Shown piece by piece: positions 8,001 to 26,887 of a stretch of DNA of 26,887 bases. Origin of the DNA: Cafeteria roenbergensis (lineage: Eukaryota; Sar; Bigyra; Bicosoecida; Cafeteriaceae). The translations under genes and the position numbers were made by a program. Every line of letters starts with the position of its first letter. The stretch's first letter is position 1. The notes beneath the pieces were generated by a model. The model ran no database searches. It was not told the DNA's origin and saw only the letters and a program-made list of their open reading frames with translations. The stretch covers positions 1-26,887 of the forward strand of contig VLTN01000120.1 in the NCBI GenBank assembly GCA_008330645.1, given 5' to 3'.

Positions 8001-11000
8001 CCGTGGCGTTGGCCACTGGTGATGCCGCGGACGAGACGCTGGCCGCTGGTGATGCCGTGGCCGTGGCTTTGGCCGCTGGTGATGCCGTGGCGTTGGCCAC
8101 CGGTGATGCCGTGGCCGTGGCGTTGGCCGCTGGTGAAGGCGTGGCCGTGGCCGTGGCGTTGGCCGCTGGTGAAGGCGTGGCCGTGGCCGTGGCGTTGGCC
8201 GCTGGTGAAGGCGTGGCCGTGGCCGTGGCGTTGGCCGCTGGGTGATCCCGTGGCCGTGGCCGAGACGCTGGCTGCTGGTGATGCCGTGGCTGTGGCGTTG
8301 GCCGTGGCCGTGGCGTTGGCCGCTGGTGATCCCGTGGCCGTGGCCGTGGCGTTGGCCGCTGGTGATCCCGTGGCCGTGGCCGAGACGCTGGCTGCTGGTG
8401 ATGCCGTGGCTGTGGCGTTGGCCGCTGGTGATCCCGTGGCCGTGGCCGTGGCGTTGGCCGCTGGTGATGCCGTGGCCGTGGCCGTGGCGTTGGCCGCTGG
8501 TGATCCCGTGGCCGTGGCCGTGGCGTTGGCCGCTGGTGATCCCGTGGCCGTGGCCGAGACGCTGGCTGCTGGTGATGCCGTGGCTGTGGCGTTGGCCGTG
8601 GCCGTGGCGTTGGCCGCTGGTGAAGGCGTGGCCGTGGCCGTGGCGTTGGCCACTGGTGATGCCGTGGCGTTGGCCGCTGGTGATGCCGTGGCGTTGGCCG
8701 CTGGTGATCCCGTGGCCGTGGCCGTGGCGTTGGCCGCTGGTGATCCCGTGGCCGTGGCCGAGACGCTGGCTGCTGGTGATGCCGTGGCTGTGGCGTTGGC
8801 CGTGGCCGTGGCGTTGGCCGCTGGTGAAGGCGTGGCCGTGGCCGTGGCGTTGGCCACTGGTGATGCCGTGGCGTTGGCCGCTGGTGATGCCGTGGCGTTG
8901 GCCGCTGGCGTGGCCGTGGCGTTGGCCGCTGGTGATCCCGTGGCCGTGGCCGTGGCGTTGGCCGCTGGTGATGCGTGGCCGTGGCCGTGGCGTTGGCCGC
9001 TGGTGATCCCGTGGCCGTGGCCGTGGCGTTGGCCGCTGGTGATCCCGTGGCCGTGGCCGAGACGCTGGCTGCTGGTGATGCCGTGGCTGTGGCGTTGGCC
9101 GTGGCCGTGGCGTTGGCCGCTGGTGAAGGCGTGGCCGTGGCCGTGGCGTTGGCCGCTGGTGATGCCGTGGCGTTGGCCGCTGGTGATCCCGTGGCCGTGG
9201 CCGTGGCGTTGGCCACTGGTGATGCCGTGGCGTTGGCCGCTGGCGTGGCCGTGGCGTTGGCCGCTGGTGATCCCGTGGCCGTGGCCGTGGCGTTGGCCGC
9301 TGGTGATCCCGTGGCCGTGGCCGAGACGCTGGCTGCTGGTGATGCCGTGGCCGTGGCGTTGGCCGTGGCCGTGGCGTTGGCCGCTGGTGAAGGCGTGGCC
9401 GTGGCCGTGGCGTTGGCCGCTGGCGTGGCCGTGGCGTTGGCCGCTGGTGAAGGTGTGGCCGTGGCCGTGGCGTTGGCCGTGGCCGTGGCGTTTGCCGCTG
9501 GTGAAAGCGTGGCCGTGGCCGTGGCGTTGGCCGCTGGTGATGCCGTGGCCGTGGCGTTGGCCGTGGCCGTGGCGTTGGCCGCTGGTGAAGGCGTGGCCGT
9601 GGCCGTGGCGTTGGCCGCTGGTGAAGGCGTGGCCGTGGCCGTGGCGTTGGCCGCTGGTGATCCCGTGGCCGTGGCCGTGGCGTTGGCCGCTGGTGAAGGT
9701 GTGGCCGTGGCCGTGGCATTGGCCGTGGCCGTGGCGTTGGCCGCTGGTGAAGGCATGGCCGTGGCCGTGGCGTTGGCCGCTGGTGATCCCGTGGCTGTGG
9801 CCGTGGCGTTGGCCACTGGTGATGCCGTGGCGTTGGCCGCTGGCGTGGCCGTGGCGTTGGCCGCTGGTGAAGGTGTGGCCGTGGCCGTGGCGTTGGCCGC
9901 TGGTGAAGGCGTGGCCGTGGCCGTGGCGTTGGCCGCTGGTGATGCCGTGGCCGTGGCGTTGGCCGCGGCCGTGGCGTTGGCCGCTGGTGAAGGCGTGGCC
10001 GTGGCCGTGGCGTTGGCCGCTGGTGATCCCGTGGCTGTGGCCGTGGCGTTGGCCACTGGTGATGCCGTGGCGTTGGCCGCTGGCGTGGCCGTGGCGTTGG
10101 CCGCTGGTGAAGGCGTGGCCGTGGCCGTGGCGTTGGCCGCTGGTGATGCCGTGGCCGTGGCGTTGGCCGTGGCCGTGGCGTTGGCCGCTGGTGAAGGCGT
10201 GGCCGTGGCCGTGGCGTTGGCCGCTGGTGAAGGCGTGGCCGTGGCCGTGGCGTTGGCCGCTGGTGAAGGTGTGGCCGTGGCCGTGGCGTTGGCCGTGGCC
10301 GTGGCGTTGGCCGCTGGTGAAGGCATGGCCGTGGCCGTGGCGTTGGCCGCTGGTGATCCCTTGGCTGTGGCCGTGGCGTTGGCCACTGGTGATGCCGTGG
10401 CGTTGGCCGCTGGCGTGGCCGTGGCGTTGGCCGCTGGTGAAGGTGTGGCCGTGGCCGTGGCGTTGGCCGTGGCGTTGGCGTTGGCCGCTGGTGATGCCGT
10501 GGCCGTGGCGTTGGCCGCTGGTGAAGGCATGGCCGTGGCCGTGGCGTTGGCCGCTGGTGATCCCGTGGCCGTGGCCGTGGCGTTGGCCACTGGTGATGCC
10601 GTGGCGTTGGCCGCTGGTGATGCCGTGGCCGTGGCGTTGGCCGCTGGTGAAGGCATGGCCGTGGCCGTGGCGTTGGCCGCTGGTGATCCCGTGGCCTTGG
10701 CCGTGGCGTTGGCCACTGGTGATGCCGTGGCGTTGGCCGCTGGCGTGGCCGTGGCGTTGGCCACTGGTGATGCCGTGGCGTTGGCCGCTGGTGATGCCGT
10801 GGCCGTGGCCGTGGCGTTGGCCGCTGGTGAAGCCGTGGCCGTGGCCGTGGCGTTGGCCGCTGGTGATGCTGTGGCCGTGGCCGTGGCGTTGGCCGCTGGT
10901 GATGCCGTGGCCGTGGCCGTGGCGTTGGCCGCTGGTGATGCCGTGGCCGTGGCCGTGGCGTTGGCCACTGGTGATGCCGTGGCGTTGGCCGCTGGCGTGG

Positions 11001-12304
11001 CCGTGGCGTTGGCCGCTGCTGAAGGCGTGGCCGTGGCGTTGGCGTTGGCCGCTGGTGATGCCGTGGCCGTGGCGTTGGCCGCTGGTGAAGGCATGGCCGT
11101 GGCCGTGGCGTTGGCCACTGGTGATCCCGTGGCCGTGGCCGTGGCGTTGGCCACTGGTGATGCCGTGGCGTTGGCCGCTGGCGTGGCCGTGGCGTTGGCC
11201 GCTGGTGAAGGCGTGGCCGTGGCCGTGGCGTTGGCCGCTGGTGATGCCGTGGCCGTGGCCGTGGCGTTGGCCGCTGGTGAAGGCATGGCCGTGGCCGTGG
11301 CGTTGGCCGCTGGTGAAGGCGTGGCCGTGGCCGTGGCGTTGGCCGCTGGTGATGCCGTGGCCGTGGCGTTGGCCGCGGCCGTGGCGTTGGCCGCTGGTGA
11401 AGGCGTGGCCGTGGCCGTGGCGTTGGCCACTGGTGATGCCGTGGCGTTGGCCGCTGGCGTGGCCGTGGCGTTGGCCGCTGGCGTGGCCGAGACGCTGGCC
11501 GCTGGTGATGCCGTGGCCGTGGCCGAGGCGCTGGCCGCTGGTGATGCCGTGGCCGTGGCCGTGGCGTTGGCCGCTGGTGATCCCGTGGCCGTGGCCGTGG
11601 CGTTGGCCACTGGTGATGCCGTGGCGTTGGGCCGCTGGTGAAGGCGTGGCCGTGGCCGTGGCGTTGGCCGCTGGTGATCCCGTGGCCGTGGCCGTGGCGT
11701 TGGCCGCTGGTGAAGGCATGGCCGTGGCCGTGGCGTTGGCCGCTGGTGAAGGCGTGGCCGTGGCCGTGGCGTTGGCCGCTGGTGATGCCGTGGCCGTGGC
11801 GTTGGCCGCGGCCGTGGCGTTGGCCGCTGGTGAAGGCATGGCCGTGGCCGTGGCGTTGGCCGCTGGTGATCCCGTGGCCGTGGCCGTGGCGTTGGCCGCT
11901 GGTGAAGGCATGGCCGTGGCCGTGGCGTTGGCCGCTGGCGTGGCCGTGGCGTTGGCCGCTGGCGTGGCCGTGGCATTGGTTCCGGGAGTTGTTGTTTCGT
12001 TGCTTTGCTCAAGCGAGAGGAATCGTTGCGCTGGGGTTTCTCGCGTTTCCAAACTTCCGTGGCCACTGCTCGCTGGCATCGGCTCCTTTTTCCCCGAGCT
12101 GGCATGGACCCCCTGTGGCTGCGTGGACGCGGATATCAGGACCGGGCGGTGCTGCTTGGGTAGATTTTGCGTTTTGAGCTCCTCGGAGGGCTGCGGATGT
12201 TCCGAGCGCGGTCTGGCTCGAGGTTCGCGACCCTGCGCCGCCCAACGCCGACTGGCGCTGCTGGTGTCGCGGAGCCAGAGAGGGCATGAACCCCTTGGCT
12301 GCAA
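1..12304 (-). CDS. Giant extracellular-type protein: N-A-T repeat stalk plus Calx-beta-like modules (partial, frameshifted)
   Basis: Read on the minus strand, the protein enters at an ATG at 12304 and passes a non-repetitive stretch (residues around QSNETTTPGTNATATP near 12010-11985). It then runs through a 6.5 kb Ala/Thr/Asn/Ser/Pro repeat, a Ser/Thr/Pro linker (5477-5090), and from 5076 a series of modules with acidic turn signatures (VVDDDVSG, VLNDDVAG, VTDNDLG, VSDNDV, LVDDDV). These alternate with beta-rich stretches such as FSAADWSIPQVVTV and LTADNWQAGESV, a pattern typical of Calx-beta-like extracellular repeats. The linker and module frames join once two single-base indels are allowed near 5190 and in a C run near 5095, so I treat this as one gene. 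The frame changes again near 2200, 2110, 1700, 1470, 900, 660 and 430. The gene runs off the left edge. The start is uncertain: no clear signal peptide is visible at 12304, and an upstream exon or indel is possible. A cell-surface or adhesive role is inferred, not shown. Confidence 0.6.
5096..5477 (-). other. Ser/Pro/Thr-rich linker between repeat stalk and modules
   Basis: On the minus strand this reads as mucin-like sequence (TPTPSMPFSSQTPSSSALP, then FTPSPSPSYSPSGSFSSTP). Near 5190 it changes frame to continue as SKPSSVPSIAPSTSPKATV and SSSTSPAAPL. Composition is continuous across the break, which is why an indel rather than a gene end is inferred. Such linkers are usually extended and O-glycosylated in extracellular proteins. 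Confidence 0.6.
5478..11978 (-). repeat. 6.5 kb GC-rich coding minisatellite (N-A-T sequon array)
   Basis: The tandem array is built on a core that reads gtggcgttggccgctggt on the plus strand, with units of 24, 30 or 36 bp that step by 6 bp (ccgtgg, one Thr-Ala pair on the minus strand). In the frame that joins the flanking unique sequence it encodes 8, 10 or 12 residue units such as SPAANATATATP. Variants are SPVANATA, SPAASVSATATG and SPAAKATA. Longer higher-order blocks recur: one holding gccgcggacgagacgctggc is seen near 5637, 5850, 6930, 7120, 7850 and 8030. Another, holding gccgagacgctggctgctgg, is seen near 7313, 7433, 8258, 8378, 8550, 8758, 9057 and 9320. Frame-changing indels lie near 5700, 6534, 6885, 7010, 7350, 7473, 8241, 8974 and 11630. 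Most change homopolymer length. The copy number in the assembly may be wrong. Confidence 0.9.
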
Positions 12305-13024
12305 AGCGTCTTCTCGCCGCTCCCGCCATACTCACGAAATGCCAAGCGCATGCCGCAGCGGCCAATGCACAAAGGATCGCGTACCTGCGCCACGCAGCGC
12401 CCGGTGCCGCGCATGGCGAGCTGGCAACCTGATTGACTTGGCCAAGCTGGCCGGCCTTGATCGCGAGGCTGCTCTGGCGAGCAAGGGAGCTAGGCTGCCG
12501 GCGGCAAAACCTTGTCCAGATCGTCAGCCGTGTCCTGGAACGACCTTAGAGCGCCCGGCACGCAGCCTATGGGCTCTGTGCGAATGCACTGTCAGTCGTG
12601 ATGCTGTCGTTCTGATCGCGCGCTGCTGCCTCTGCCGCATCGAGCCTGTTTCGGCGTCCGCCGAGCACCCAACTGCACGACCTTTTGCAGCCGAACAGTT
12701 GGCCTGCCTATTTCAGCGCTCGCGCGACCCGGTGTTAATGTTGTGTTTCCCTCTTTCGTGCTCGGACCTGACAAGGCGGAGCCCAACGCGGCAAGCCTCG
12801 CGCACCCCGCCGCGGATGAGTCAGCGGCGGTGCGCTCGATGCCAGCGGCCGCAGCGAATGCGGCCATGCATTGGGGAATCAGCACCAGGATAAATGGGAC
12901 ATACGATGTGCAAGGCAGCGCGGAAGCGATCGGACTTCAGCGAGCACGACGCTTTTCGAACAGTGCCGCTCGAGCAGTCTGCTCCCATGCACGCATATAT
13001 ATTGATCGCTGCGAGCATTGCCGT
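12305..13024. other. Intergenic sequence between giant gene and transposon
   Basis: There are 720 bp without a supported gene. Open frames cross it on both strands but none carries a recognisable motif. A short AT-rich stretch (atatatat, about 12995-13002) is the only TATA-like sequence seen and lies just outside the transposon end. This segment is probably the 5' region of the giant minus-strand gene, possibly including an unrecognised first exon. Confidence 0.5.
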
Positions 13025-13032
13025 GGCTGAGC
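13025..13032. repeat. Left target-site duplication GGCTGAGC
   Basis: This 8 bp direct repeat is identical to 21060-21067 and exactly abuts the outer ends of the terminal inverted repeats. An 8 bp duplication fits the 8-11 bp range known for Mutator-like elements. Confidence 0.85.
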
Positions 13033-13384
13033 GGTAGAGCGTACAGGGGGCCTAAGCCCCCCCCCTTATTGACATCTTTTTCCCTTCCGCCCACTCCGGC
13101 AACCACACCACCGCCAAAACCACCGCTTTTTCGCAAAAACCGGCGCAAAGACTACTAAACCTTCATGTGTGACGCGGGCAGCGCCCAGGACCACGCCACC
13201 GAGGCGTGAGGCGGCGGCAAAGTCGGCGCCATTTACGCTGTCAAACGCCCAGCCTCCCCCACCCTCTCCAGGCCTTCGGTGTCACCCCTCCCCCCCACAG
13301 ATCCATCGTCAGGGCATGGAATGACTCCCTGGCGCGGGAATCTGGCCCAATGGAGCCAGGATGGGCGCCAAGCGATCGCCGTGG
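13033..13384 (+). repeat. Left terminal inverted repeat (352 bp)
   Basis: It matches the reverse complement of 20710-21059 from the tip to gcgatcgccgtgg, where the two sides diverge abruptly. Differences are one substitution near the tip and single-base changes in four homopolymer runs. The first ATG codons of the transposase frame (13279, 13321) lie inside this repeat, so both arms carry the same potential N-terminal codons. Confidence 0.93.
13046..13061. repeat. Subterminal palindrome, left tip
   Basis: GGGGGCCTAAGCCCCC lies 13 bp inside the left end, with one mismatch to a perfect 16 bp palindrome. The partner at the right tip (21031-21046) is perfect. It could form a hairpin or be a transposase contact site; this is inferred. 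Confidence 0.75.
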
Positions 13385-16300
13385 CCGTTGCCAGCAACAG
13401 GCCGCACGTGGCTCGCAAGTTCTTGGCCGGAATGCAGCCAACTGATCAAAGGACCAGCATGTACGTCTATCCGACGCCCCCTGGAAGAGATGGCTCTTGG
13501 TTGAGCGAGGCTCTGTGGGCTGTAGCGGCGTTTGCTGCCCGAAACGAATCGACCGTTGCTTTCGCCGCTCCCGCCAGCACTGGAGATGCTCCCCCTGCAA
13601 TAAGGACCACCTCCGTCACGGTTTGCTTGCTCCAGAGCATTTCAGATCATTTGAGGCCCCATGCCGTGGAGTTGGTGGCACTGGAAGTGCTCAGAGCGGC
13701 GGAGAGCCCGCTGAGCTTGTCGTCACTGCCTGCCGACGTCGGCAGAGCCTTTCTCCTGGCTACCAGAGGCGCACCCGGTGGCTGCGGTCACCGGGTTACC
13801 CAGAAAATGGTTTCCAAATGGTATAACGCCTCGTCCATTCGGCGCGCGTTGCCAAGGAGGTCAGATTGGCTGACCAGAGCAGCTGAGCCGGAGGACTTGC
13901 TGCTTGGGCACTTCGCCGTCGTCGATGGGACTACGCTGGTGGATGCCAGGAAGCAGGTGCAAACCCTCGTTGCCGCGGCGGGGGCGGGTCTGAGTCGCAA
14001 GGCAACCGGAGCCTCTGTGACTTACCGCTGCCTCGCGCGCAAGGACATTAAACCCCGCGAGGCACTACGATGGGGATCATCGCAAGAGAATGCTGCTCTT
14101 TTGACCGCTGCAGGAGTTGACCTGTCCGATGCTTCCGAGGGAGATCACCGGCCGGACGACGATGGCCCAGGTGGCAGTTGCGCTGGCGATGGCCACGCGG
14201 ACGGCGGCGCCAGCGAGGCTAGTGGCTGCAACGGATCCACGAGCGACGGTTCCTCGCCTGTAGGCTTGCCTTTGAGCCAGCTCACTCAGCAATTAGACGC
14301 GGCAGCCTTGATTCCGCCCACAGCATCAACTGCCGATGCTTCCGAGGGACCGGACAGCATGGTGGCGAGCCTGCAGCACGGCTCAAGTGCTACTCCCCGT
14401 GGGACAGCCCCGCTTTCAGCAGCGAGCAGCACTGGCCCCGTTGACTCGCCTGTGGTAGTGCCACCGGCTGCTTCAGTGCCATTGCCTGTTTCTGCCATAT
14501 CGCCAGGCGTTGGACCTGCTGGCCATGGCACTGCGGTGTCTGCAGGAGATATCAGGCTCAGTTGCCTGACGAGCGCTACGTTCGATCCGTTGCAGCCCGT
14601 GCTCACGGGGAGGTCCGCGTTCACAGCGGTCTCAAGTGCCCAGGGCGTCTCCGGCTGGTCGAGTTGGGCACGACCGTTATTGTGTTTTCCACTGCTCACT
14701 GCAATGAGTGCGTTTCGCGCTGTGGCGAGTGGGTCCGGAGTCAGGCGCCCGACAGTGTTCTGGGCAGGCTTTTCCCGATGGACCCTCGGGCTCAGGCAAC
14801 GTTGGTCGCTCACCTCAGTATGGCAGGCATGAAGGCACAACCGACGACCGTCATGTCCGTGGTCAACGCCATGCTCTCGAGGCTCGCAGTTTTGACCGAG
14901 GGATGTTCCTGGAACATTTGAGGCATGTGCAATCCGACGGGCTTGCGCGGCTTGTGCCCAGACAGGAACGGACAGCACAGCGATTGCCAAGGGGCGCATC
15001 TTTGAAGATGCGGCAACAACGGCAGCTTGAGGCGCTCCAGCGGTCGGCTCCTCCGGCCTACATCGAGTGCAGCGAATGTATGTGTCGAAGGATGACGTGT
15101 GCAACCTGAAGCGTCGACTGTACAAGGAATCATCAGTGGGAGACCAAAGCAGTTTGCAGGAGTTCGTTGACGAGTACAGCCGTCAAGGATTGACGGGGCA
15201 ACGCGAGGTGAAGGAAGGCGACGAACATGTGCAAGTCAGGCTGTTCATGCACAGGCAGGTCCCAGACATGGTTGCAAGGGATCTCGACATGCTCAGAGTG
15301 CTGAATGTGGACGACACCTTCAACTCCGCTGGAAGTGGTGCAGGTGCGCTGCTTTGGGCTCGTATGCAAAAGTAGTGTTGGAGACTGCGTTGTGCCGCTA
15401 GGCTGGGCGACGCTGGAGAGAGTCGTGCCAGCCGGAACTCCTCACGGAGAGTCAGATGCCGGCCTCTCCGGTGCTGGCCCCAAAGTTCACCAAAGCATCG
15501 ACACTCTGCGCCCTCGAGCTGCTCTGGGAGTTGCTGGCGCTCAGGTTTGGGGCTTCCAATCTCCCCATTCCAGCATTGACAGTGTCTGATGAAGCGCCGG
15601 AGTTTCTGTGGGCCTGCACCGCGTTCAAGAGCAAGCTTTTGAGTCGACAGATTCAAGAGTGGCGCTCCGGGCTCGGTTCGGCTGACTCAGGAAACGGAGA
15701 AGAAGACGCTGATGTCGCATTCCTGTTGGCGAGGGCCATGGGGTTTAGCCCCTCGGCCGACGGACCCGCTGAGTCCAGAGTCTCCGGCGGCGCAAGCAGT
15801 GTTGTCCAAGATCGCGTTGTCGTTCACGCAGGGGAGGGTGTTGCGCGGCGGCCCCTCCGACCCTGTTGGCAGAGCGATGCCTGCTCCCTGCAGGCTGACC
15901 GATTCCTCTTCGCTGCAAGCTCCTGATGCACACCGTCCTTCCCCCGATCAACAGGCTCAACCAACGCAGGCTTGCGGCATGCACTCTCAGGCAACCGTTG
16001 CTGCGAGCCCCTGCCCTCCTGAGCGGCCGTCACGCGTGGCAGTCGGCTCCTCACCGAGTCGGGAGAGTCCCTCCGTGACAACACAATGCAACGCCTCTTC
16101 AAGGTCGGCCTTGAAACACGGGGAGGCATTCCAAGCCGAACTGGCATTCCAAGCCCTGAGGGGTATGCACTCTTCCGTCTTTTTTGACCCAGAGTCCCAG
16201 GTCTACAGCGTCCTGCTTCAGCGAGGCTCTCTCGAGGAAAGGCTATGCTTCGCAAGCATGGATTTGCGATCTCCGGAAACTCGAGCCGGCGAGCACTCTG

Positions 16301-18387
16301 ATGCCGGAGTCCCTCATCCCCCGCGTGAAGCGGCCCTTTCCCAAGTCCCGCAGCATTGCCGAGGGACGGCTTGCTGACGTTGGAAGCTTGGTCAGCGCCT
16401 TGCAAGACTCTTTTGCCAGCACCCCGCCTCTTCGTGAGGCTGGGGCTCCTCTGAGGTCCATCTGCACCGGGCTGCGCGTGTTCGACGTCGCTTCCAACAT
16501 CGCGGGGACGCTAGACATCGTTGGGGTGTCTGCAGACGGCAGTCATGTCGTTGCCTTCGCAGTGGAGCGCCAGCAGGACCTGTTCTCAGTTGACGAGATG
16601 GAATCATTTGCTTGGCAGCTGAGTTCGATTGAATCTATCATCCACCGCGCAACAGGGCTGCGGGCGTCTTCGATTCGCGTGCGGCACGCGTTGGTGGATC
16701 CAAAACGCGATGCCTCCGCTGTGAAGATTGTTGATGCAAACGGTTGGGCTCGTCGAATCCGGTCCAGCCAGGCAAACCCAAGAGCCGCTGCTGCTGCCAT
16801 CCTTGGGCGCCGGAGAGGCGTTTTGGAATCTGCGTCGCGACTTACAGTCCCTAGCGTGGGCCCCGTCGAGCGGGAGCTCTGGTCATTGGACAATAGCCCA
16901 ACCAAGAGCTTCTGGCTCTGCCAGCGCCCTCTACGCCGCTGTTTCGGAGCTCATCAGCCAAGGAAAGGCAGAGAAAGTTCAGCGAATTGTGCTCAACGCA
17001 GTGACGGTTCTTCAAGCTGCTTGCGAGCGCGCTCAAGCCGACCCTGGCAGGTCCGCCGCGCTTGCCCTCTGGCAGGCCAGCACAGCGATGCTTGCCAAGG
17101 GTATTCGGCACATAGCAGCTGCCCTGGGGGCCGGCGGCAGCACCCCGCCAGGATCCCCAGGCTGGGGCGACCTTGCATCGCTCCTGCCAGCTGATGCACT
17201 TCAGCACCTACATTGCAGCTGGCACAAGAATCAAACCATGGTACGTAAAACTAGCACGTGCGTCAAGACGTTGCATCTTCGCAAGCAAGTTCAGCGTGCC
17301 TGGCTTGACATTCGGGACAGCAAGCAAGGCATAGGAGTCGCGGGCAACTTTTCTCGCCTGGTGCACCTTCTGGCCGACGGCGTGAGTCAGGCGCAAGTTT
17401 CTCTTGACTCTGCGAGGACGCTAGTGGCCTACGTTCGCGCTCAGCTGCAGCCCAAAGTTTGCGTCAGTTGGCTGGCTGCCAATCGGAGCGTGTATTGCTC
17501 CGACGCTTCGAACAACGCTGCGGAGGGAACGTTTTCTGGAGTAAAAAACCACTTCCACCGGTGTCGCCGGCCAAGGTCGCAGCTTGCAGCGCTGCATGAC
17601 CTGGTAGGAAGCCCAGTCAACCGGTTCACGGCGTGTCATAGCTTCGGGGCGGCGACGGCCGTGCTGTTCTTTTCCCGTCAAGGCGGTTACGCACGGCCTT
17701 CTCAGCGGGCTGCGCTAGCGAGCCGTCCGGCGGCCGAGGGAATCGTCATCACGCTGGAGGCTATCGAAGCCAATCAAACTGGGGCCGCCAGTCCTATTCG
17801 TTTTGAGTTTCCGTCGTCCTTCTTCGTTCAAGACGACCTTGCAACAGGCATAGCTTCAGCAGGGTTTCGGGTCGACCTTGCTCGACGAAGCTGCAGCTGC
17901 GAAGTGGCGTCGCGTACAACTTATGCATCCGTCTGTTGTCGCCACTTCTGCGCTGCATACTACTTCTCTGTTTACACTGGAATTGGTTGCTTTGAGGACG
18001 TTCGAGACGCTACTCTTGACTCCCTCTGGGAGCGGGCAACAAGTTTTGCACTCAGCCCCTGTGGTGCAGATGGCCATGTGCCGGCATCCCCTACTGCCCC
18101 CAGTCTGGTATCTGCCCCACGTCAACCAACGCTTCAGCTCCCACGGGGCAAGGCACAGTGGGACTGTCGCGGGCATGCGACCACCATCACACTGGCGATC
18201 AACCACTCCGTCAAAGTGACAGGCGGTACAATCGAAAGCCGAAGCGCGGGCACTTGCGCGACTCTGGGACCATGCGGAGCAGGCGTTGCAGCTCCAGTCC
18301 AGGAAACGGGCACGTGAAGGCTTTTCGAGTGAGCCTCCCGCGTCGAGGCTCAGGCCAAGTGAAGAACAGCCCCACACTGCCTGCTAG
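13279..18387 (+). CDS. MULE-like transposase with N-terminal zinc-binding region and SWIM finger (frameshifted)
   Basis: Coding sequence can be followed across several frame breaks. 13279-14555 encodes an N-terminal region of unknown function with a KWYNASSIRRALPRR patch. A CP...HCNEC cluster (Cys 14637, His 14697, Cys 14700, Cys 14709) resembles the FLYWCH/WRKY-type finger of MULE transposases. The catalytic core starts with NVDDTFNS (Asp codons 15310 and 15313), followed by CFGLV and VPLGWATLE. The second Asp is in SDEAPEFLWA (15588). C-S-W-H is at 17214-17225 and the Glu lies in SNNAAEGTF (17523). The SWIM finger C-x-C-x12-C-x-H is at 17892-17945. A basic C-terminal tail (LQSRKRAREG) ends at TAG 18385-18387 after a last frame change near 18220. 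Breaks fall near 14555, 14930, 15060, 15330, 15450, 15800, 16260, 16850 and 18220. The near-identical TIRs suggest that some are assembly errors rather than decay. The start codon is uncertain. Confidence 0.75.
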
Positions 18388-18821
18388 CGCACCTCAGACG
18401 GTTATCCGCCAACGCATTGAATCAGTCGTGCAAGTACTGTTGTAACGCCATGGTGCGTGCCGGCGACAATGTTGCGAACCGCATGTGACAGCAGAGCACT
18501 TGACGCAGTTCGAGCTGCTTGGTCGCGCAAATTCACAGCTCTGCACAGTGGGCACAGCACATATGGCGCGATGGGTTGGCTACGCGTGACACCCACGAGC
18601 CGTAGTGGCCCGTGAGCCCAGCGGAGCGCACGATCATCAAGGCCACGCCCACCTGCAAACTTGAACACAGGACCAACCAAGCGCAGGCTGCATCGTTTGC
18701 CAAAACGCACTCGGTCAAAGAACTTCTCACGGAGCATCAACCCGATTGGCAGTCGTCCAAGCGCGGTTGGCATCCAACAAAGACACGGCTGAAGTCCATC
18801 CGAGCAACTGTGACATCCATT
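18388..18821. other. Non-coding stretch inside the transposon, before the minisatellite
   Basis: This covers 434 bp between the transposase stop and the internal tandem array. I see no motif-bearing frame, tRNA or terminator-like structure here. It is transposon sequence, being inside both inverted repeats. Confidence 0.5.
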
Positions 18822-20070
18822 CCAGCGACGTCGACGTTGTTGACGTCCTTTTAGGCACTGTTGACGTCCTTCCAAGCGACGTCGACGCTGTTGACGTCCT
18901 TCTAGGCACTGTTGACGTCCTTCCAAGCGACGTCGACGCTGTCAACGTCCTTCTAGGCACTGTTGACGTCCTTCCAAGCGACGTCGACGCTGTTGACGTC
19001 CTTCCAAGCGACGTCGACGCTGTTAACGTCCTTCTAGGCGCTGTCGACGTCAGTCCAAGCGACGTCGACGTTGTTGACGTCCTTCTAGGCACTGTTGACG
19101 TCCTTCCAAGCGACGTCGACGCTGTTGACGTCCTTCCGAGCGACGTCGATGCTGTTGACGTCCTTCCAAGCGACGTCGACGCTGTTGACGTCCTTCCAAG
19201 CGACGTCGACGCTGTTTGACGTCCTTCCCGAGCGACGTCGATGCTGTTGACGTCCTTCCAAGCGACGTCGACGCTGTTAACGTCCTTCTATGCACTGTTG
19301 CCGTCCTTCCAAGCGACGTCGACGCTGTCAAACGTCTTCCAAGCGACGTCGACGCTGTTGACGTCCTTCCAAGCGACGTCGACGCTGTTAACGTCCTTCT
19401 ATGCACTGTTGACGTCCTTCCAAGCGACGTCGACGTTGTTGACGTCCTTCTAGGCACTGTTGACGTCCTTCCAAGCGACGTCGACGCTGTTGACGTCCTT
19501 CCAAGCGACGTCGACGCTGTCAACGTCCTTCTAGGCACTGTTGACGTCCTTCCAAGCGACGTCGACGCTGTTGACGTCCTTCTAGGCACTGTTGACGTCC
19601 TTCCAAGCGACGTCGACGCTGTTGACGTCCTTCCAAGCGACGTCGACGCTGTTAACGTCCTTCTAGGCGCTGTTGACGTCAGTCCAAGCGACGTCGACGT
19701 TGTTGACGTCCTTCTAGGCACTGTTGACGTCCTTCCGAGCGACGTCGATGCTGTTGACGTCCTTCCAAGCGACGTCGACGTTGTTGACGTCCTTCTAGGC
19801 ACTGTTGACGTCCTTCCAAGCGACGTCGACGCTGTTGACGTCCTTCTAGGCACTGTTGACGTCCTTCCAAGCGACGTCGACGCTGTTGACGTCCTTCCAA
19901 GCGACGTCGACGCTGTTAACGTCCTTTTATGCACTGTTGACGTCATTCCAAGCGACGTCGACGCTGTTGACGTCCTTCTAGGCACTGTTGACGTCCTTCC
20001 AAGCGACGTCGACGCTGTTGACGTCCTTCCGAGCGACGTCGACGCTGTTGACGTCATTCCAGCGACTTCG
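18822..20070 (+). repeat. Transposon-internal minisatellite of 30 and 21 bp units
   Basis: The array is made of a 30 bp unit (ttccaagcgacgtcgacgct followed by gttgacgtcc) and a shorter 21 bp unit (ttctaggcactgttgacgtcc). They are interspersed, often as a 51 bp pair. By eye there are about 30 of the long and about 16 of the short units. Variants include tccgagcgacgtcgatgct, tctatgcactg and agtccaagc. Both units are multiples of three, so the plus strand reads LPSDVDAVDV with LLGTVDV, and the minus strand STSLGRTST. Slips at 19214 and near 19330 change frame. Each long unit contains the palindrome CGACGTCG. No protein function can be assigned, and a structural or regulatory role is as likely as a coding one. 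Confidence 0.9.
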
Positions 20071-20072
20071 GC

Positions 20073-20528
20073 ATGGCTGGCGTCATTGCGAAGGCCATCG
20101 ACGTAGATTCCACCGACGAATACACGGATGGGGTCGTGAATGACAGCGACATTATACCCATCACTCTTCAACGCATTCTCTCGAGCTGGGAGGCTTCTTT
20201 GCGGCGCATCGCGGACTGCGCAAAGGCCATTCTGGCCATTCATCGCTCCGCAGAAGCCTCACGAGTCCGATTCCAGCGTCTCCACACGACCCAAGTGCCC
20301 TATCACCTCACACTTCACAGGCAGCTTGCAGTTGGGTGGCTCTGCGACGCTGAACGGCTCCTTTGTGGCCAGCACTGCAGGCGTCACACCAGTCAGGCCA
20401 TTCCGATGAGTTCTTTCGAACAGCAAGCGGCCCATGCGTTGAGATCACATGAAGACGCAAAGGATTCATCTTTCAGACCTGGCAACCTGGCCCCTGTGAG
20501 CGATAGCAGGGAGGCTGGAGCTGGTTGA
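20073..20528 (+). CDS. Small unrecognised frame after the minisatellite (doubtful)
   Basis: This is a 151-residue open frame beginning MAGVIAKAIDVDSTDEYTDG. It contains a mixed hydrophobic and charged stretch (SLRRIADCAKAILAIHRSAE) and cysteine/histidine residues (WLCDAERLLCGQHCRRH). I do not recognise a family. It starts in the last degenerate minisatellite unit, inside the transposon, and a minus-strand frame overlaps it. It may be a second element gene, a piece of transposase duplication, or chance in GC-rich DNA. Confidence 0.2.
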   Translation: MAGVIAKAIDVDSTDEYTDGVVNDSDIIPITLQRILSSWEASLRRIADCAKAILAIHRSAEASRVRFQRLHTTQVPYHLTLHRQLAVGWLCDAERLLCGQHCRRHTSQAIPMSSFEQQAAHALRSHEDAKDSSFRPGNLAPVSDSREAGAG

Positions 20529-20709
20529 GGATCAACGGCCACGACGAAAATGGCTTTCTCGGTCCCGCCGCAGCCCACCTTCCCCGTCCTCAGCAGTCCT
20601 GCAGCGGCGATTAAGAGTTGAGCAAGTCGCACACGACCTCGTGGTCGCGCACGCTCGTTCAAGGCAGAGAAATGAGCGAGGAAGGTGTTCAACGGTGTCC
20701 ACATTCTCT
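20529..20709. other. Unique transposon sequence before the right inverted repeat
   Basis: A short stretch between the doubtful frame and the right inverted repeat; I see no gene or site in it. Confidence 0.4.
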
Positions 20710-21059
20710 CCACGGCGATCGCTTGGCGCCATCCTGGCTCCATTGGGCCAGATTCCCGCGCCAGGGAGTCATTCCATGCCCTGACGATGGATCTGTGGGG
20801 GGAGGGGTGACACCGAAGGCCTGGAGAGGGTGGGGAGGCTGGGCGTTTGACAGCGTAAATGGGCGCCGACTTTGCCGCCGCCTCACGCCTCGGTGGCGTG
20901 GTCCTGGGCGCTGCCCGCGTCACACATGAAGGTTTAGTAGTCTTTGCGCCGGTTTTTGCGAAAAAGCGGTGGTTTTGGCGGTGGTGTGGTTGCCGGAGTG
21001 GGCGGAAGGGAAAAAGATGTCAATAAGGGGGGGGGCTTAAGCCCCCTGTACGCTCTACC
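20710..21059 (-). repeat. Right terminal inverted repeat (350 bp)
   Basis: It is the reverse complement of 13033-13384. Compared with the left arm it has one extra C in the gcgcccattt run, one fewer C in two C runs, one fewer G in atggcgcc, and t instead of c in the tip palindrome. The outer end is 181 bp upstream of the proposed pantothenate kinase start. Confidence 0.93.
21031..21046. repeat. Subterminal palindrome, right tip
   Basis: GGGGGCTTAAGCCCCC is a perfect 16 bp palindrome, 13 bp from the right end of the element. It mirrors the one-mismatch copy at 13046-13061. Confidence 0.8.
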
Positions 21060-21067
21060 GGCTGAGC
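21060..21067. repeat. Right target-site duplication GGCTGAGC
   Basis: A perfect copy of 13025-13032, directly outside the right inverted repeat. With the left copy it defines the element ends to the base. Confidence 0.85.
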
Positions 21068-21240
21068 TGGCCGAGGCAACTCGCGGCTGGCATGAGCACT
21101 GTGCGCGGCCCTGCGCACAACCAGTCGCAAGGAGGAAGAAGAAAACCGCTGGCATCGCGTCGAGGTCTGCTTGGTGCTTTTGGGAGTCTCCGGGAGGCAA
21201 CGCATCGGCTGTCCAGGCGCCTCCGCAGCCTCTGGAAGCC

Positions 21241-22605
21241 ATGGAGGCTTGGCAGCAGCTCGCCACTGCTGGGACCGTTGTGCTTGGGGGGGCGATTGCT
21301 TGGGCTGTCCTTGGATGGCGATGCACCGCATTCGATCCGCCTGGGTGTCCCGAGGGAGTGGACACCTCTGCGCATGAGAGTGATCCAGGCAGGTGCGCGA
21401 GGCGCGTTTCTGGGCTTGGACATTGGAGGCACCCTGAGCAAGCTCATTGTCATCGACCCCGGCACTGCAGACGCTAGATCTCCTGCCTGCAAAGCGGGTC
21501 GTTGACTTCGTGACGGCCCACCAGCGGTTCGGCTTGACAGGCAAGCGCGACGAGCACCTCGCGCTCGAGCTTGGGGACGGCGCCGTGATCCACTTGCTCC
21601 GGTTCCACACGCGGCGAATGCCCGGTGCTCTAGCCCTGGCCCGTTCGCAGCTGGAAACATGTGAGGGTGTGAAGGGGCTGGCCTGACTGTGGACTGCACT
21701 GGCGGCGGTTTCGCGCGCAAGTTTGCTGGTGCCTTTGCAAGGGAGGCGTCCTTGACGCTCCGAGCTCACGACGAGCTTGAGTGTCTGGTTGGTGGATTGA
21801 TTGCCCTGCTGCGGGCCAGTCCAGACGACGAAGCCTTCGCTCTTGGGTCGGGCGGGCGAGCGCATGGGGAGGGACCCTCAGCGGCAGCAGCGCGTTTCCG
21901 TTCATCGTCGCCAACGTCGGAAGCGGTGTGTCCATCGTGCTGGTGGAGAGCCCTGACAGATGGCGGCGTGTCAGCGGCACCCCCATTGGCGGCGGCACCT
22001 TTTTTGGCCTCGTGAACCTCGATCCACCGGGCTGACGAGCTTCAGCGAAATGCCTCAGCGCCGCCGCCAAGGGCGACCACACGGCAGTCAACCTTAACCG
22101 TCGGCGACATATACGGCGACTCGGAGGGGGTCTACGGCTTGCGGCCAGATCACATCGCGGCAAACTTCGGAAAGCCGCTGGCCGCGCGCCGCATGCCCAG
22201 GAGACCGAGCAGAGCCGGCGACCAGCCGCCGCGAATGCGGCTCGGATGGCGCGGCTGCAGAGGCTGACAGCGCGACTCCTCCCAGGGTCCGATCCGGATC
22301 CTTTCATTCGGACGGGCGGTTTCATGCTCGCACGGAGGACGTGTGTCGTGCAGCGCTGGTGATGGTGACCGACCCAAGTGGCCCAGGCCGCCGTGATGTC
22401 CGCGAAGCACCACGGGGTCAGGCGGGTCCTGTTTGCAGGCAGCTTCCTGCGACACGGTAGCAGCGGGGGTGTGCCCCAGGAGCGGCTGTCGTGGGCAATC
22501 GACGCGTGGTCGGGCGGGGAGGCCGAGGCCATCTTCCTCAAGCGCGAGGGCTACTACGGCGCTCTCGGCGCTCTGCTGGCGTCTGGGGACACTTGTGCAA
22601 GCTAG
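21241..22605 (+). CDS. PANK: Type II (eukaryotic) pantothenate kinase, frameshifted locus
   Basis: The family makes phosphopantothenate, the first step of coenzyme A synthesis. Fragments in the correct family order are visible in changing frames. These are the ATP-binding GLDIGGTLSKL (about 21414), HLLRFHTRRM, DCTGGGFARKFAG (about 21693), HDELECLVGGL, ANVGSGVSIVLV (about 21910), RVSGTPIGGGTFFGL and VGDIYGDSEGVYGL (about 22102). Then come HIAANFGKPL, VRRVLFAGSFLR (about 22420) and the C-terminal EGYYGALGALLASG before the stop at 22603-22605. At least six single-base breaks separate them (near 21340, 21480, 21687, 21850, 22040 and 22350). All signature blocks are intact, so these are probably sequence errors rather than a pseudogene. 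The proposed start (MEAWQQL, 21241) puts a hydrophobic stretch (TVVLGGAIAWAVLGW) at the N-terminus, possibly a membrane anchor. A start nearer MRVIQAG (about 21373) is the alternative. Confidence 0.85.
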
Positions 22606-22944
22606 CGTTCTGCCCCCTCGCAACAGCGGAGTGGTCGAGCTGGCCGCGTGTGAGAGGCCACGGGAGCTGAGGTCCGTGTGCGCTGCGGGGCGCTGGGTTT
22701 TGCGCGCCTTGAGCCCGGCCCATCGCGGGTGGTATACCCGGTGGGTTTGTTTTGCGCGGCACACGTTGTGAGCACGGCCCCCCGGCGCTCGCAGCCGCGC
22801 AAAGTTGGGGAGCGGTGCGTTCCAGCCGCTGCCTGGCCGCATGCAAGGAAGGTGGCGCGAGGCAAGCCAATCGCACTCACTCCCACACGTACACGTCTCC
22901 TCCCTGCCTCCCTGCCTCCTTGCCTGCCTCACGCGCGTACTTGC
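22606..22944. other. Convergent intergenic spacer
   Basis: About 340 bp between the ends of two converging genes. It contains a short C/T-rich stretch with repeated ctgcctcc (about 22908-22930). I see no other gene or site. Both 3' untranslated regions should lie here. Confidence 0.5.
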
Positions 22945-24378
22945 TCACGCACGGGCACCCTCAGCCTTGGTGGCGGCAACGTCAGCGGCCATCTTCCCGA
23001 CCACGCACTCGCGCATGGTCTCGAAGAGGCCGGCCTCCAACTCATCCTGAGCGGGCGTTGCCGACTCCACAGCGCGCATGAACGCGCTGGCCTCGGCGGG
23101 GCAGGCGGCCGTGCCCAGGCAGTAAGTCAGGCCCACGAAGGCGGTGCGGGCCTCGTCCTCTGTCTTGGCCTCCGCCAGCTTCACTCGGAGGGGGTTGCAC
23201 TTGCGGTCCATGGTCGCCAGGCGGTCGGCGGCGGCGCGGGCGGTCTCCGTCTTGAACTCCACCGCGGACGACGGCTGGGCGCCCTTGCGGGAGCTGCCTC
23301 CGCCACCAAGGGCTGCCGTGAACTTCTCTGGCACGGCTTCCGGGTCGGTGCCGTCGGCGAAAGTCTTGAAGTTCTTCAAGGCGTCGAGCGCGCGGCCGGG
23401 GAAGGCCATGATGCGATCCACGAAGGCGCCGGGGCTGTCGACAGCAGGGCGGACGTCCACATGGATGCACTTGGTGCTCTTGGGGTCGGGGTCCGCAGCC
23501 TCGACCTTGGAGTCGAAGTAGTAGTCAAGCACGTAGCGGACCTCCTTGCCGTCCCCGCGATCGACGAACCAGTCGTGGCGGTCAAAGGGCTCGCCGAAGC
23601 CGAGCATCGCCTTGATGCGGGCCTTGGGGCTGGGCTCAAAGGGCCGGCCCATGAACCGGCGGAGCTTGGGGCACCCGGGCTGGAGCTCCGAGCCGTGGAA
23701 GCGCGTCTCCCACTCCCTCAGCATGGACCAGCCGCGCTCGTTCATGGCGTTGTGGATGGCGACCACGTGCTCCATGTCGGCCTCCGAGACATTGTCCGCC
23801 TTATCCTTGCGCACCAGGGCGTTGTAGAACTGCTGCGGAGACGGGTAGAGCCACGTCTCCGACTCGGTGCCGCCCTTGGGGATGTTCGACTGCACGCGGT
23901 GCGTGGACAGGGGGGCCTTCTGCCCCGGGGCCGGCTTCTGCGCGAGGGACGGCATCATGTTCCTCGGGTTGATCTCCTGGCCGTACACGTTGTTAAAACC
24001 TTGCCGGTGTTGGACGCGGGCCGGTTGGGATCGGGCGTGTCGTACCCCATCGGGCACTCTCCCCCGGCCGCGGCAGGGGCAGCTGAGGCCGCCTTTGCGG
24101 TGTGGTCGACAGGGCACTTGCCGGCGTCCGCATGCTTGCCAGCGGCAGCGGCCCCACCGGCCTGAGAGCCTGTCTTCGAGTGGTCGATGGGGCAGCCGCC
24201 CGCGCGAGCGGCCTCGGCCATAGCCGGGGACACTGCGCCCGCCGCTCCAGCGGAATGGTCCACAGGACACTTTCCGCCAGCGGCGGCCACGCTAGCGGGT
24301 GGCTGCGTGCTGCTGGGCCACGGCAGCTGCGTCAGGCACCTGCGAAGCGTTCTTAGGCACAGACTGCGAGGCTCCCAT
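22945..24378 (-). CDS. HCCS: Holocytochrome c synthase (cytochrome c heme lyase), with C-terminal extension
   Basis: The enzyme attaches heme to the CXXCH motif of cytochrome c at the mitochondrial intermembrane-space face. The start MGASQSVPKNAS (24378) resembles the MG-start of animal HCCS. Four Cys-Pro motifs follow: KCPVDH, GCPIDH, KCPVDH and ECPMGY. The core has NPRNMMPSLAQKPAPGQ, LSTHRVQSNIP, TWLYPSPQQFYNAL, the WETRFHGSELQPGCP block holding the expected heme-ligand histidine, GEPFDRHDWFVDR, EVRYVLDYYF and VDVRPAVDSPGAF. Beyond the usual end there are roughly 150 more residues with several cysteines (TYCLGTAACPAEA). The frame breaks near 24300 and again near 24000 (at GKGFNNVYG); single-base changes would restore both. 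The stop is at 22945. The kinase converges from the left, and the JmjC gene lies upstream on the same strand, 158 bp away. Confidence 0.9.
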
Positions 24379-24536
24379 GGCTGGCGGCTGAACTGCTGTT
24401 GCGCGCACCCCAGAGGCCGGAAACTGCGCTGCCCGAGGACTGCCTCTGGCGCTCAGTGGGACGAGGGGGAGGCGTCCGTCGCATGCGCGCGCGCTCGCGT
24501 CAGGTTGCGAGGCGGCGGCTCTGCAGCTTCGACCTG

Positions 24537-26547
24537 TCAGACGCAAGCGCGCCGCAGCGCGCAACTGCTTCGCCCAGCCGCCTTCCAGCGGGACATTTCG
24601 AAGACGCCGCACGCCCACACAACACACACCGATCTGCATGGCCGTGCTCGCGCCCACGGCGGCCTTTGTGCAGGCAGCGAAGCGATGTTTCCAAGGGGCA
24701 TGTGCGCGTCGCGCAGGAGCACCTCCACCAAGAAAGGCGGTGCCAAGCTCACGCAAGCGTGCGCAGCACAAAGAGCACCCTCACGGACGAGCTCCTCAAC
24801 CATCCCAAGCACGACAGCGCGGCCCGAGTCGGGCTTGGCCTCGTCCTCGTCCTCGTCCCCGTCCTCCTCGCTGTCGCCGCCTTCGTCTTCGCTGTCCACT
24901 TCCATCACCGGCAGCTCCAGCGCGGGCAGCCACCCCGGGTAGGAGCGCACCAGAGCTTCCACGGCAGGCGCCACAGCGATGTCGAACACGAGGCGCCCCT
25001 CCTCCGCGCCCTCGAAGCGCACCGAGTTGGTGTGCGCGTGGTACACGACGCACTCTCCAGCCTCCACCGTCATGCGCGTGGCACGTGGGGTGCGCCAGCC
25101 GAACCACGGAGGCGGGGCCAAACTCGAGGGGCCCGACGCTGGCGGCGTCCCTCGTCCGCCGCCGCCGCCGAGGCGGCCGAGGAGGCGGCGGCGGCGGACG
25201 AGGAGGAGCTGCCCGCGGCTGTGGCCGTCACGGGGGGGGGCGGCAGCGCTACAGACTCCATCACAGCCGGGTCGGTGTACTCGGCTTGCATGGCCGCCGT
25301 GGCCGGGTCCACGAGGGGCGGCAGGCGCTGGCGGAGGAAGCGCCTGGCCATCTGATCCGCGGCAGCGTCCGTGTCCACGAGGCCCACGGCCGTTGCGACG
25401 AGCTCCTTGGCGTGCGCGAGCAGCGCAGCGCGGTCCTTGTCGCCGTCGTCGTCTGCGCGCATCACGCCGAGCAGGTCCATCATGTTGCGGGGCAGAGTGC
25501 GGTTCAGGGCCGGGTCCTCGGCCGCCGCGGCCTCCACTGCCGCCTCCAGCGCAAGCGACACCAGGTCCTTCCAGGTGAAGCGCATGGCCGTCGACACGGT
25601 GAGGTGGAGGGACGCGCACCCCGGAAGGGCAACCGCCTGGTGGATCCAGCCGCGCGGGGAGGTAGAGGAGGTCGCCGGTGCGCAGCTCCGCCTCGAGCAC
25701 GGGGACCCGATGTCCTCCTGGCCGAAGTTGCGCGAAGGAGAAGCGGGGCAGGACGGTGGACGCGGAGAGGGGCGGTACACCCGCCAGCGCTTGGCGCCCT
25801 CGGTCTGCACGAGGAAGGCCTCGATGTCGTCGTAGTAGGGGGGCGAAGCCCTGGGTGCCGGCGGGGGTGAGGTAGGAGTTGCTTCCCGTAAACGCGCCGA
25901 ACCCGTCCTCCCAACGCGGAGAGGAGGCCGTAGATGGGCCGCAGGTGGGCGTGCGGGCAGAGCATGCGGAGCGACCGGCCGCGGTTCTCCAGGTTGTCGA
26001 GAGCAGCGCTCAGGGGCACCACGCCGGTGCCGTTGTGCGTGGAGCGCTTGGCGTCCTTGTAGGAAGTCACGTCGAGGTCGTCCTCGTAGGTGAGACGCCC
26101 AGCCTCGATCAGCCCGCGGATGTCGGCCAGCGACAAGAGCCCAGCGTTGAAGTCGGGCGCGACCTCATGACGACGGCATGATCAGCGGCCGCTGCTCCCA
26201 GCAGTCGCGGAAGAAGGCATCCACGGGCATGGGGAAGAGAAGCCACTCCAGTGCCTTGTTGCCGACCTCGCGCGGGTCCCTCGGGGGGTTCGGGAAGGGC
26301 TGCCGCCTTCTCGCCGGCGCCAAGCTTGTCCCAGGAGCCGAGCTGCGTGGGCGCGCTTGTAGTCGTCGGCCGACATCTCAATGTCGACGACGGGGTCGGG
26401 TCGGAGAGCGCCTCGAGCACCTCGGCGCCTGCCGCGCTCACGGAGGTTGCCTCGCTTTTGCCGAGCGCTGCGATTTTCAGCCCCTCCATCGGCCCCCGCA
26501 AACCGGTTCCGAGCCGCCGCTCCGGCGCTGGATGCGCCTGCTGCCAT
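24537..26547 (-). CDS. RIOX: NO66/MINA-type JmjC ribosomal oxygenase, frameshifted locus
   Basis: The family comprises Fe(II)/2-oxoglutarate oxygenases that hydroxylate ribosomal protein histidines (NO66 also reported as a histone demethylase). It acts in the nucleus and nucleolus. Family blocks in order are ALEWLLFPMPVDAFFRD (about 26250), LTYEDDLDVTSYKDAKR, STHNGTGVVPLSAA, YLTPAGTQGFAP, then YDDIEAFLVQTEGAKRWRVY with the HxD iron site (about 25835). Next are GDLLYLPRGWIHQAVALPG, LHLTVST with the distal His (about 25595), a long helical region, a Ser/Ala insert, RMTVEAGECVVYHAHTNSV and a C-terminal winged-helix-like end after an acidic stretch (DSEDEGGDSEEDGDEDEDE). Frame breaks occur near 26480, 26400, 26310, 26165, 25900, 25837, 25690 and 25170. 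The start is MAAGASSAGAA (26547), or MEGLKIAALG at 26489. The stop at 24537 is the next one in frame, but the true end may be earlier (near 24770). Confidence 0.85.
25150..25203. repeat. Perfect 20 bp inverted repeat (hairpin) inside the JmjC gene
   Basis: The arms cctcgtccgccgccgccgcc (25150-25169) and its exact reverse complement (25184-25203) flank a 14 bp spacer. It is almost pure G/C and falls in the Ser/Ala low-complexity insert between the JmjC region and the C-terminal part, where the reading frame also breaks. Confidence 0.9.
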
Positions 26548-26887
26548 GTCCGGATGCGGCGGTGTTGGCCGTGCGGGCCGCTCTCGGCGCGCCCTTTGCG
26601 CGCGATGCTGAGGCGACGTGGCCCTTCCGGCAGAGCGCCAAGCGATTGCACTTGCACACCTCCTCATCACACGCAGGTCACACAACGCAGGCGCTTGCGC
26701 AAGCCGGAGAGCATGCAAGCAGCACACTATCGCGCGTGCGCCGCCGGCATCACCATGCTTCGACCGTGCCGCTGAGAAAAGCCATTGCTCGTTTTCACAC
26801 ACGGCGCTGCAATTGGCGTGCCGGGCAGCAGGGATCAGCGCAGGAGCGCAGCACAAGGCTCAGTCCAAGCGCGCGCTGCCTGCGAGC
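26548..26887. other. Upstream region of the JmjC gene
   Basis: 340 bp at the right edge. Open frames continue upstream on the minus strand but without recognisable protein motifs. No TATA-like or other site could be supported. It is presumably promoter and 5' untranslated sequence of the JmjC gene. Confidence 0.4.

Follow-up and report, generated by a model that had tools for sequence, protein, structure and literature searches.

What kind of transposon lies in the middle of contig VLTN01000120.1 of Cafeteria roenbergensis (assembly GCA_008330645.1), and has it moved recently? The whole contig, a stretch of 26,887 nucleotides, was analysed and is called the window below. Positions 13033 to 21059 are occupied by a transposon of 8,027 bp lying between two copies of GGCTGAGC, which a preliminary description made from the sequence alone had taken for an intact and young Mutator-like element (MULE). 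Sister copies elsewhere in the genome, exact target-site duplications (TSDs) beside them and two empty sites lead us to conclude that the element is real, young and polymorphic. Very probably, it is a recently transposed DNA transposon with long terminal inverted repeats (TIRs) that works like a MULE.

Boundaries and copies of the element

The left TSD (13025–13032) and the right TSD (21060–21067) are perfect 8-bp copies of GGCTGAGC, which occurs singly at an empty site on another contig, C27; the ends are fixed to the base, as had been proposed. Alignment defined a left TIR of 352 bp (13033–13384, plus strand, outer end GGTAGAGCGTACAG) and a right TIR of 350 bp (20710–21059, minus strand). 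On realignment the pair differed by one substitution and four single-base indels over 353 alignment columns, in agreement with the one substitution and four length changes described earlier. TIRs of such length are far beyond chance, and long TIRs are one of the features by which MULEs are recognised.

We searched the genome (36.3 Mb in 167 contigs) with the left end of the element (window 13025–13400). Seventeen matches were obtained, two in the window and 15 at eight other places. Two of these places hold long copies, on C43 (8,025 bp) and C131 (7,777 bp). Five hold short copies, which are complete on C2 (5,072 bp), C6 (4,891 bp), C13 (4,582 bp) and C90 (4,933 bp) and interrupted by the contig start on C32. 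The eighth place gave a weak match (C22:318653–318790, 76% identity to a stretch inside the TIR), which is either an old relic or a member of a related family.

Exact TSDs were found at all six copies having both flanks; C90, whose right flank is 2 bases long, and C32, where the contig starts within the element, are left out of this count. The TSDs are 8 bp long in the window (GGCTGAGC) and at C13 (GGCAAACG), and 9 bp long at C43 (GTAGAATCT), C131 (CTGTCGCAG), C2 (GCCGACGAA) and C6 (CAAGCAGGC), within the 8–11 bp given for MULEs (PMC6446971). No common motif was evident among the six TSDs compared. Further copies with duplications of 8 or 9 bp, which the preliminary description had anticipated, are therefore present. 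The TSD of the window copy together with the start of the TIR resembles a tRNA D-arm. Insertion into a tRNA gene was rejected and the resemblance considered a coincidence: no tRNA was detected by ARAGORN with bacterial settings, either in the window or in eight retrieved loci, Rfam gave no match in the window at gathering thresholds, and the remaining five TSDs bear no likeness to the D-arm-like sequence.

The short copies lack element positions 1118–5416 (14150–18448 in the window), a stretch that takes in nearly the whole transposase gene. They retain roughly the leftmost 1.1 kb and everything from element position 5417. Over the left 1.1 kb they diverge from the window copy by 7–11% (positions 210–1117 in the case of C13). 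The N-terminal part of the gene kept in them shows 20, 16 and 27 differences at codon positions 1, 2 and 3 (C2 compared with C43), a pattern too weak to decide whether it has been under coding constraint. As the C2, C6 and C13 copies are flanked by exact TSDs, the short copies have moved, presumably mobilised in trans by transposase from elsewhere.

Empty sites and recent insertion

For six copies the two flanks were joined and used as genome queries. For the window copy, C27:432410–433008 (599 bases, reported identity 100%) covers the whole 600-base joined-flank query and contains one GGCTGAGC, and C34:305973–306456 matches the joined flanks of the C131 copy at 99%. C27 is the empty site for the window insertion and C34 that for the C131 insertion. 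No empty site for the C2, C6 or C13 copies was present among the 40 of 142 candidate places that were scored. The C43 copy is located in a dispersed repeat, which accounts for 30 of the 43 rows of the joined-flank search; these 30 matches extend at least 37 bases beyond the C43 insertion point. This repeat, of about 277 bp, is found paired on the same strand at a distance of about 6.33 kb (C14:388267 and 394600; C36:356505 and 362834; C107:22469 and 28805), spaced as would be the long terminal repeats of a retrotransposon family.

The three long copies are nearly identical. Pairwise comparison of their gene regions gave 6 substitutions in 4,965 positions, 6 in 4,969 and 5 in 4,969. Together with the two empty sites, of which C27 holds the single GGCTGAGC that had been predicted, this bears out the earlier view of a young and recent insertion. 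The two insertions are either polymorphic in this assembly or located in recent duplicates. The window contig and C27, like C131 and C34, behave as alternative alleles with and without the element, recent duplicates being the alternative. Beside the insertion, C131 and C34 differ by 37 mismatches in 2,485 columns and by 45 in 2,007; farther out the values are 49 in 2,250, 145 in 3,523 and 10 in 1,514. To the left of the window insertion the long C27 matches traverse a large minisatellite (88.8–91.3% identity, 370 and 401 mismatches) and were left out of the comparison.

It might be argued that C27 is a locus of precise excision or a near-identical duplicate rather than the pre-insertion allele. 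About 90% of the excisions of the mosquito element Muta1 in yeast were precise when it was flanked by TSDs (PMC5225508). Alleles and recent duplicates are, moreover, not separable without read depth. The near-identical long copies and the second empty site, on C34, fit recent insertion at least equally well, and none of these observations is decisive. We regard excision or duplication as an unlikely origin of the C27 site and retain recent insertion as our interpretation.

The transposase gene

The transposase gene region extends from 13350 to 18366 on the plus strand. Its end is placed where the sequence matches residue 1380 of the open frame in C131, and a candidate start codon at 13350 lies within the left TIR. 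C131 contains a single stop-free frame of 1,380 codons. C43 contains a frame of 967 codons that starts inside the TIR and overlaps it; this frame runs out of register with that of C131 over about 30 codons, and a second time close to its end, owing to indel differences between the two copies there. Taken together, the C131 and C43 frames outline one intronless gene of about 1,670 codons. In the window copy the transposase frame is not continuous, and the motifs are spread over three frames: D1 in the first, D2 and the CxxH, E and SWIM motifs in the second, and an insert domain in the third. The preliminary description of an intact element with its own transposase holds as to the gene and its motifs and, for the sequence as it stands, fails as to the word intact.

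The interval between the gene and the 3' TIR is occupied by a minisatellite (18807–20070) with 30- and 21-bp spacings, for which Tandem Repeats Finder (TRF) reported periods of 51, 81 and 132. Minisatellite arrays are present in the four complete short copies too and are longer there than in the long copies. Since its unit lengths are multiples of three, several frames of either strand stay open through the array, and we hence make no coding claim for it. A second gene after the minisatellite (frame at about 20052–20528) was also considered. Within this frame the window lacks one base that is present in the other six of seven aligned copies, so the frame is not kept in those copies and this candidate was rejected.

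A broken frame raises the possibility that the frameshifts are real, the window copy being truly defective and having depended for its movement on a sister copy acting in trans. The frame is indeed broken in the window copy and in C43 alike. The pattern of differences argues otherwise: substitutions among the long copies amount to about 0.1%, and the pairwise indels in the gene number 24, 15 and 14, nearly all of a single base, so that the window copy differs from its sisters by 15 and 24 indels against 6 substitutions each (2.5–4 times as many). A similar bias is found outside the element. When the unique right flank (window 21060–26887) was compared with C27:426917–432716, 7 mismatches and 51 gap openings were counted in 5,843 columns, a pattern resembling that of unpolished long reads. 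At least one of the two contigs must therefore contain many length errors, and frameshifts read from such contigs are unreliable. As indels exceed substitutions in the unique flank as well as in the gene, assembly error is the likelier cause of most of the frame breaks, and a genuinely defective window copy seems to us rather improbable.

Catalytic motifs and superfamily placement

Residue numbers follow the C131 protein (P0005), and all positions are on the plus strand of the window. Motif reading placed D1 at D364 (15310–15312), D2 at D456 (15588–15590), the C-x-x-H motif at C997 and H1000 (17214–17225), the W at W1082 (17469–17471) and the catalytic E at E1100 in the sequence N-N-A-A-E-G (17523–17525), the W-to-E segment spanning 17469–17525. 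A SWIM-type C-x-C...C-x-H motif follows at C1223-x-C1225...C1238-x-H1240 (17892–17945). The D, D, CxxH, E and SWIM motifs of the preliminary description were thus all located, SWIM by motif alone, and together with the W they occur in MULE order. The W-to-E spacing is 18 residues and that from H to E is 100. We infer that the C-x-C...C-x-H region has a SWIM function. A single-gene DDE transposase with this zinc motif would then presumably bind the 350-bp TIRs, excise the element and join it to staggered cuts in the target, probably by cut-and-paste chemistry. Such staggered joining would leave TSDs of 8 or 9 bp with no evident target preference.

Several observations weigh against this interpretation, among them the lack of a continuous frame in the window copy noted above. 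The D1-to-D2 distance is 92 residues and the D2-to-E distance 644; in twelve arthropod MULE families these distances are 60–84 and 120–214, and complete single-frame transposases measure 313–1,136 amino acids (PMC13359780). No meaningful Pfam, NCBIfam or PHROG match was obtained at E ≤ 10 for the transposase or pieces of it, the sole rows being a VWF domain (E = 0.93 and 0.68) and one unnamed PHROG (0.7). The MULE profile PF10551 gave no protein match at E ≤ 10 and none in the genome at E ≤ 0.01, in a search that gave matches in 4 of 14 controls. Finally, the window piece containing CxxH, E and SWIM, without D1 and D2, was modelled with a predicted local distance difference test score (pLDDT) of 43, and the resulting DDE-core model is unusable. 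Other searches were negative as well: the Pfam SWIM model did not match the C-x-C...C-x-H region, the Pfam PHD finger did not match the transposase, and no sequence relative of the 529-residue C-terminal window frame was found in the PDB at E ≤ 1. Two scans of viral contigs revealed no relatives; 23 stretches matched a pattern in one of them and none was confirmed.

Could the element then belong to another superfamily with long TIRs and 8-bp TSDs, KDZ/Zisupton or hAT/P? The missing MULE profile match would suit such a placement, and hAT and KDZ elements also make 8-bp duplications. The KDZ profile PF18758 likewise had no match at E ≤ 10, whether to the whole protein or to pieces of it; its genome search was empty too, but gave no match in any of 14 controls and shows no absence by itself. 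In hAT transposases an insertion domain lies between the W and E regions, which are far apart, and the TSD is 8 bp only. Here the W stands 18 residues before the E, as in Muta1, and four of the six testable copies have 9-bp TSDs, so that the features of hAT are not found. TIRs of about 350 bp in combination with a SWIM motif suit MULEs (PMC6446971 Table 1). We accordingly consider a placement outside the MULE group improbable. We call the element MULE-like by anatomy; the MULE character described earlier is borne out by motif order, part of the spacing and the TSDs; neither PF10551 nor PF18758 gave a profile match. It is apparently a new family, set apart by the size of its transposase and by the insert described below.

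An insert between D2 and CxxH

The transposase has about 520 extra residues between D2 and CxxH, and these would lie between the helix that follows D2 and the strand that precedes CxxH. A 172-residue piece (16343–16858, plus strand) was modelled from the single sequence, without an alignment. The best model had a mean pLDDT of 72 and the other four 36–41. It predicts a domain whose centre runs helix, strand, strand, strand, helix, strand and which is possibly PD-(D/E)xK-like. The putative active site, D764 (16514–16516) and E781-x-Q783 (16565–16573, plus strand), carries Q in place of K; some known PD-(D/E)xK enzymes use ExQ.

Foldseek returned no PDB match for the insert model at E ≤ 0.001. 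TM-scores were low (0.2–0.4) and the top ranks went to Rep15:Rab3B. Among the best 50 of 905 PDB matches, 25 are entries that we take to have the PD-(D/E)xK fold. These comprise 14 chains of one bunyavirus endonuclease, followed by R2 (with a match that may or may not lie in its endonuclease domain), a splicing endonuclease, DXO, lambda exonuclease, HincII and Cas4. In a library of viral structures the one match under E = 0.001 was an uncharacterised phage protein (3.9e-4), followed by a PD-(D/E)XK endonuclease-like protein (1.0e-3). Among the best 50 of 703 matches, 12 were named PD-(D/E)XK, Holliday resolvase, VRR-NUC, exonuclease or YqaJ.

How should this insert be understood? That the extra residues are a mere spacer or disordered, the PD-(D/E)xK-like fold being a model artefact, is a serious contender, although we put it below an even chance. 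It agrees with one confident model out of five from a single sequence, with the weak PDB scores and Rep15:Rab3B ranks, and with an insert that, beyond the modelled piece, is rich in Ser, Pro and Ala over much of its length. The recurrence of nuclease folds and names in both structure searches speaks against it, as does the alignment of the sequence around D764 with a distant homologue on contig C18. On balance, we give a PD-(D/E)xK-like fold somewhat better than an even chance of being right. That the insert is an active nuclease is much less likely; the domain, if real, would most likely serve DNA binding or target handling.

A bolder reading is that the element represents a new MULE-related lineage with a working PD-(D/E)xK endonuclease domain between the post-D2 helix and the strand of CxxH, and hence two unrelated nuclease active sites per chain, the C18 relative having lost residues of both sites and become a host gene. 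We consider this a long shot. If true, the work could be divided, one site cleaving the ends of the transposon and the other cleaving the target or the second strand, much as in Tn7. There the PD-(D/E)xK and DDE activities of TnsA and TnsB cooperate; that system is bacterial, usually comprises two proteins and uses a different transposase family. In the literature searched, which consisted mostly of titles and the beginnings of abstracts, no MULE-type core with an internal PD-(D/E)xK domain was recognised.

A distant relative on contig C18

Protein searches of the genome found only one other relative, a 1,471-codon open frame at C18:91119–95531 (L027:4120–8532, minus strand). It is a distant homologue of the transposase, collinear with the C131 protein at 25% identity. 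Their alignment scored 83.6 bits, compared with at most 35.0 for shuffled sequences (175 of 200 shuffled versions gave an alignment). In this alignment, in which single columns may be misplaced at 25% identity, C18 retains D1, the C of CxxH and four SWIM positions. At D2 and at H it has G, opposite W and E there are gaps, and both E781 and Q783 in the insert correspond to V. A DNA search of the genome revealed no second copy of the C18 gene, and an exact 14-mer search of 26 kb around it gave isolated 14-base inverted matches only, with no inverted repeats. These features fit a domesticated transposase gene.

Comparison with known systems

Muta1 offers a close comparison for the catalytic residues. 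Alanine at any of D214, D283, H307, W401 or E419 abolishes its transposition in yeast, and its TSDs are 8 or 9 bp with no sequence preference (PMC5225508). W401 and E419 are 18 residues apart, the same distance as here, and H-to-E is 112 residues compared with 100. Muta1 and other mosquito MULEs have DDE transposases with C-H and W motifs and near-identical copies, as found here, and mosquito Muta5 has a TIR of 151 bp, long TIRs being a further shared feature (PMC5225508). The differences lie in size and accessory motif: the Muta1 transposase has 504 residues with 24 between D2 and H, whereas the present one has about 1,670 with 544, and FLYWCH in Muta1 contrasts with the SWIM-type motif here (PMC5225508).

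Other likenesses were drawn from published descriptions. Rehavkus, an outgroup of MULEs, has TIRs of 26–400 bp, a TSD of about 9 bp and a minisatellite before the 3' TIR (PMC6446971), all of which are shared by the present element, with its minisatellite at 18807–20070. Rehavkus is described from arthropods and annelids and carries a PHD finger (PMC6446971), for which no match was found here. Aphid Phantom elements have a minisatellite after the transposase, and red-algal MULE-Cc elements of groups 36 and 38 combine TIRs of 192–640 bp with SWIM, comparable to the long TIRs and SWIM-type motif here; group 36 is noted for 'various inserts, potentially host derived' (PMC6446971 Table 1). KolobokP is a eukaryotic DNA transposon that pairs a DDD/E transposase with a nuclease, but its nuclease is a small His-Me finger protein (PMC9587614), whereas the nuclease-like domain here would sit within the transposase core.

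Elsewhere in the window, positions 5478–11974 form a 6.5-kb minisatellite with TRF periods of 12, 36, 84 and 120. Two long frames cross it, one of 2,415 amino acids on the minus strand (5057–12304) and one of 1,846 amino acids on the plus strand (7353–12893); the minus-strand frame had no Pfam match at E ≤ 0.1.

Implications

The occupied and empty sites present in one assembly catch a low-copy transposon near the moment of moving. Its transposase was missed by Pfam, NCBIfam and PHROG, and such elements may consequently be under-annotated in GC-rich protists. The C18 relative, without D2, H and E, would add another case of a transposase turned host gene. If the nuclease-like domain is real, a MULE-type catalytic core would tolerate an entire additional enzyme fold, and at a position that the literature searched does not describe.

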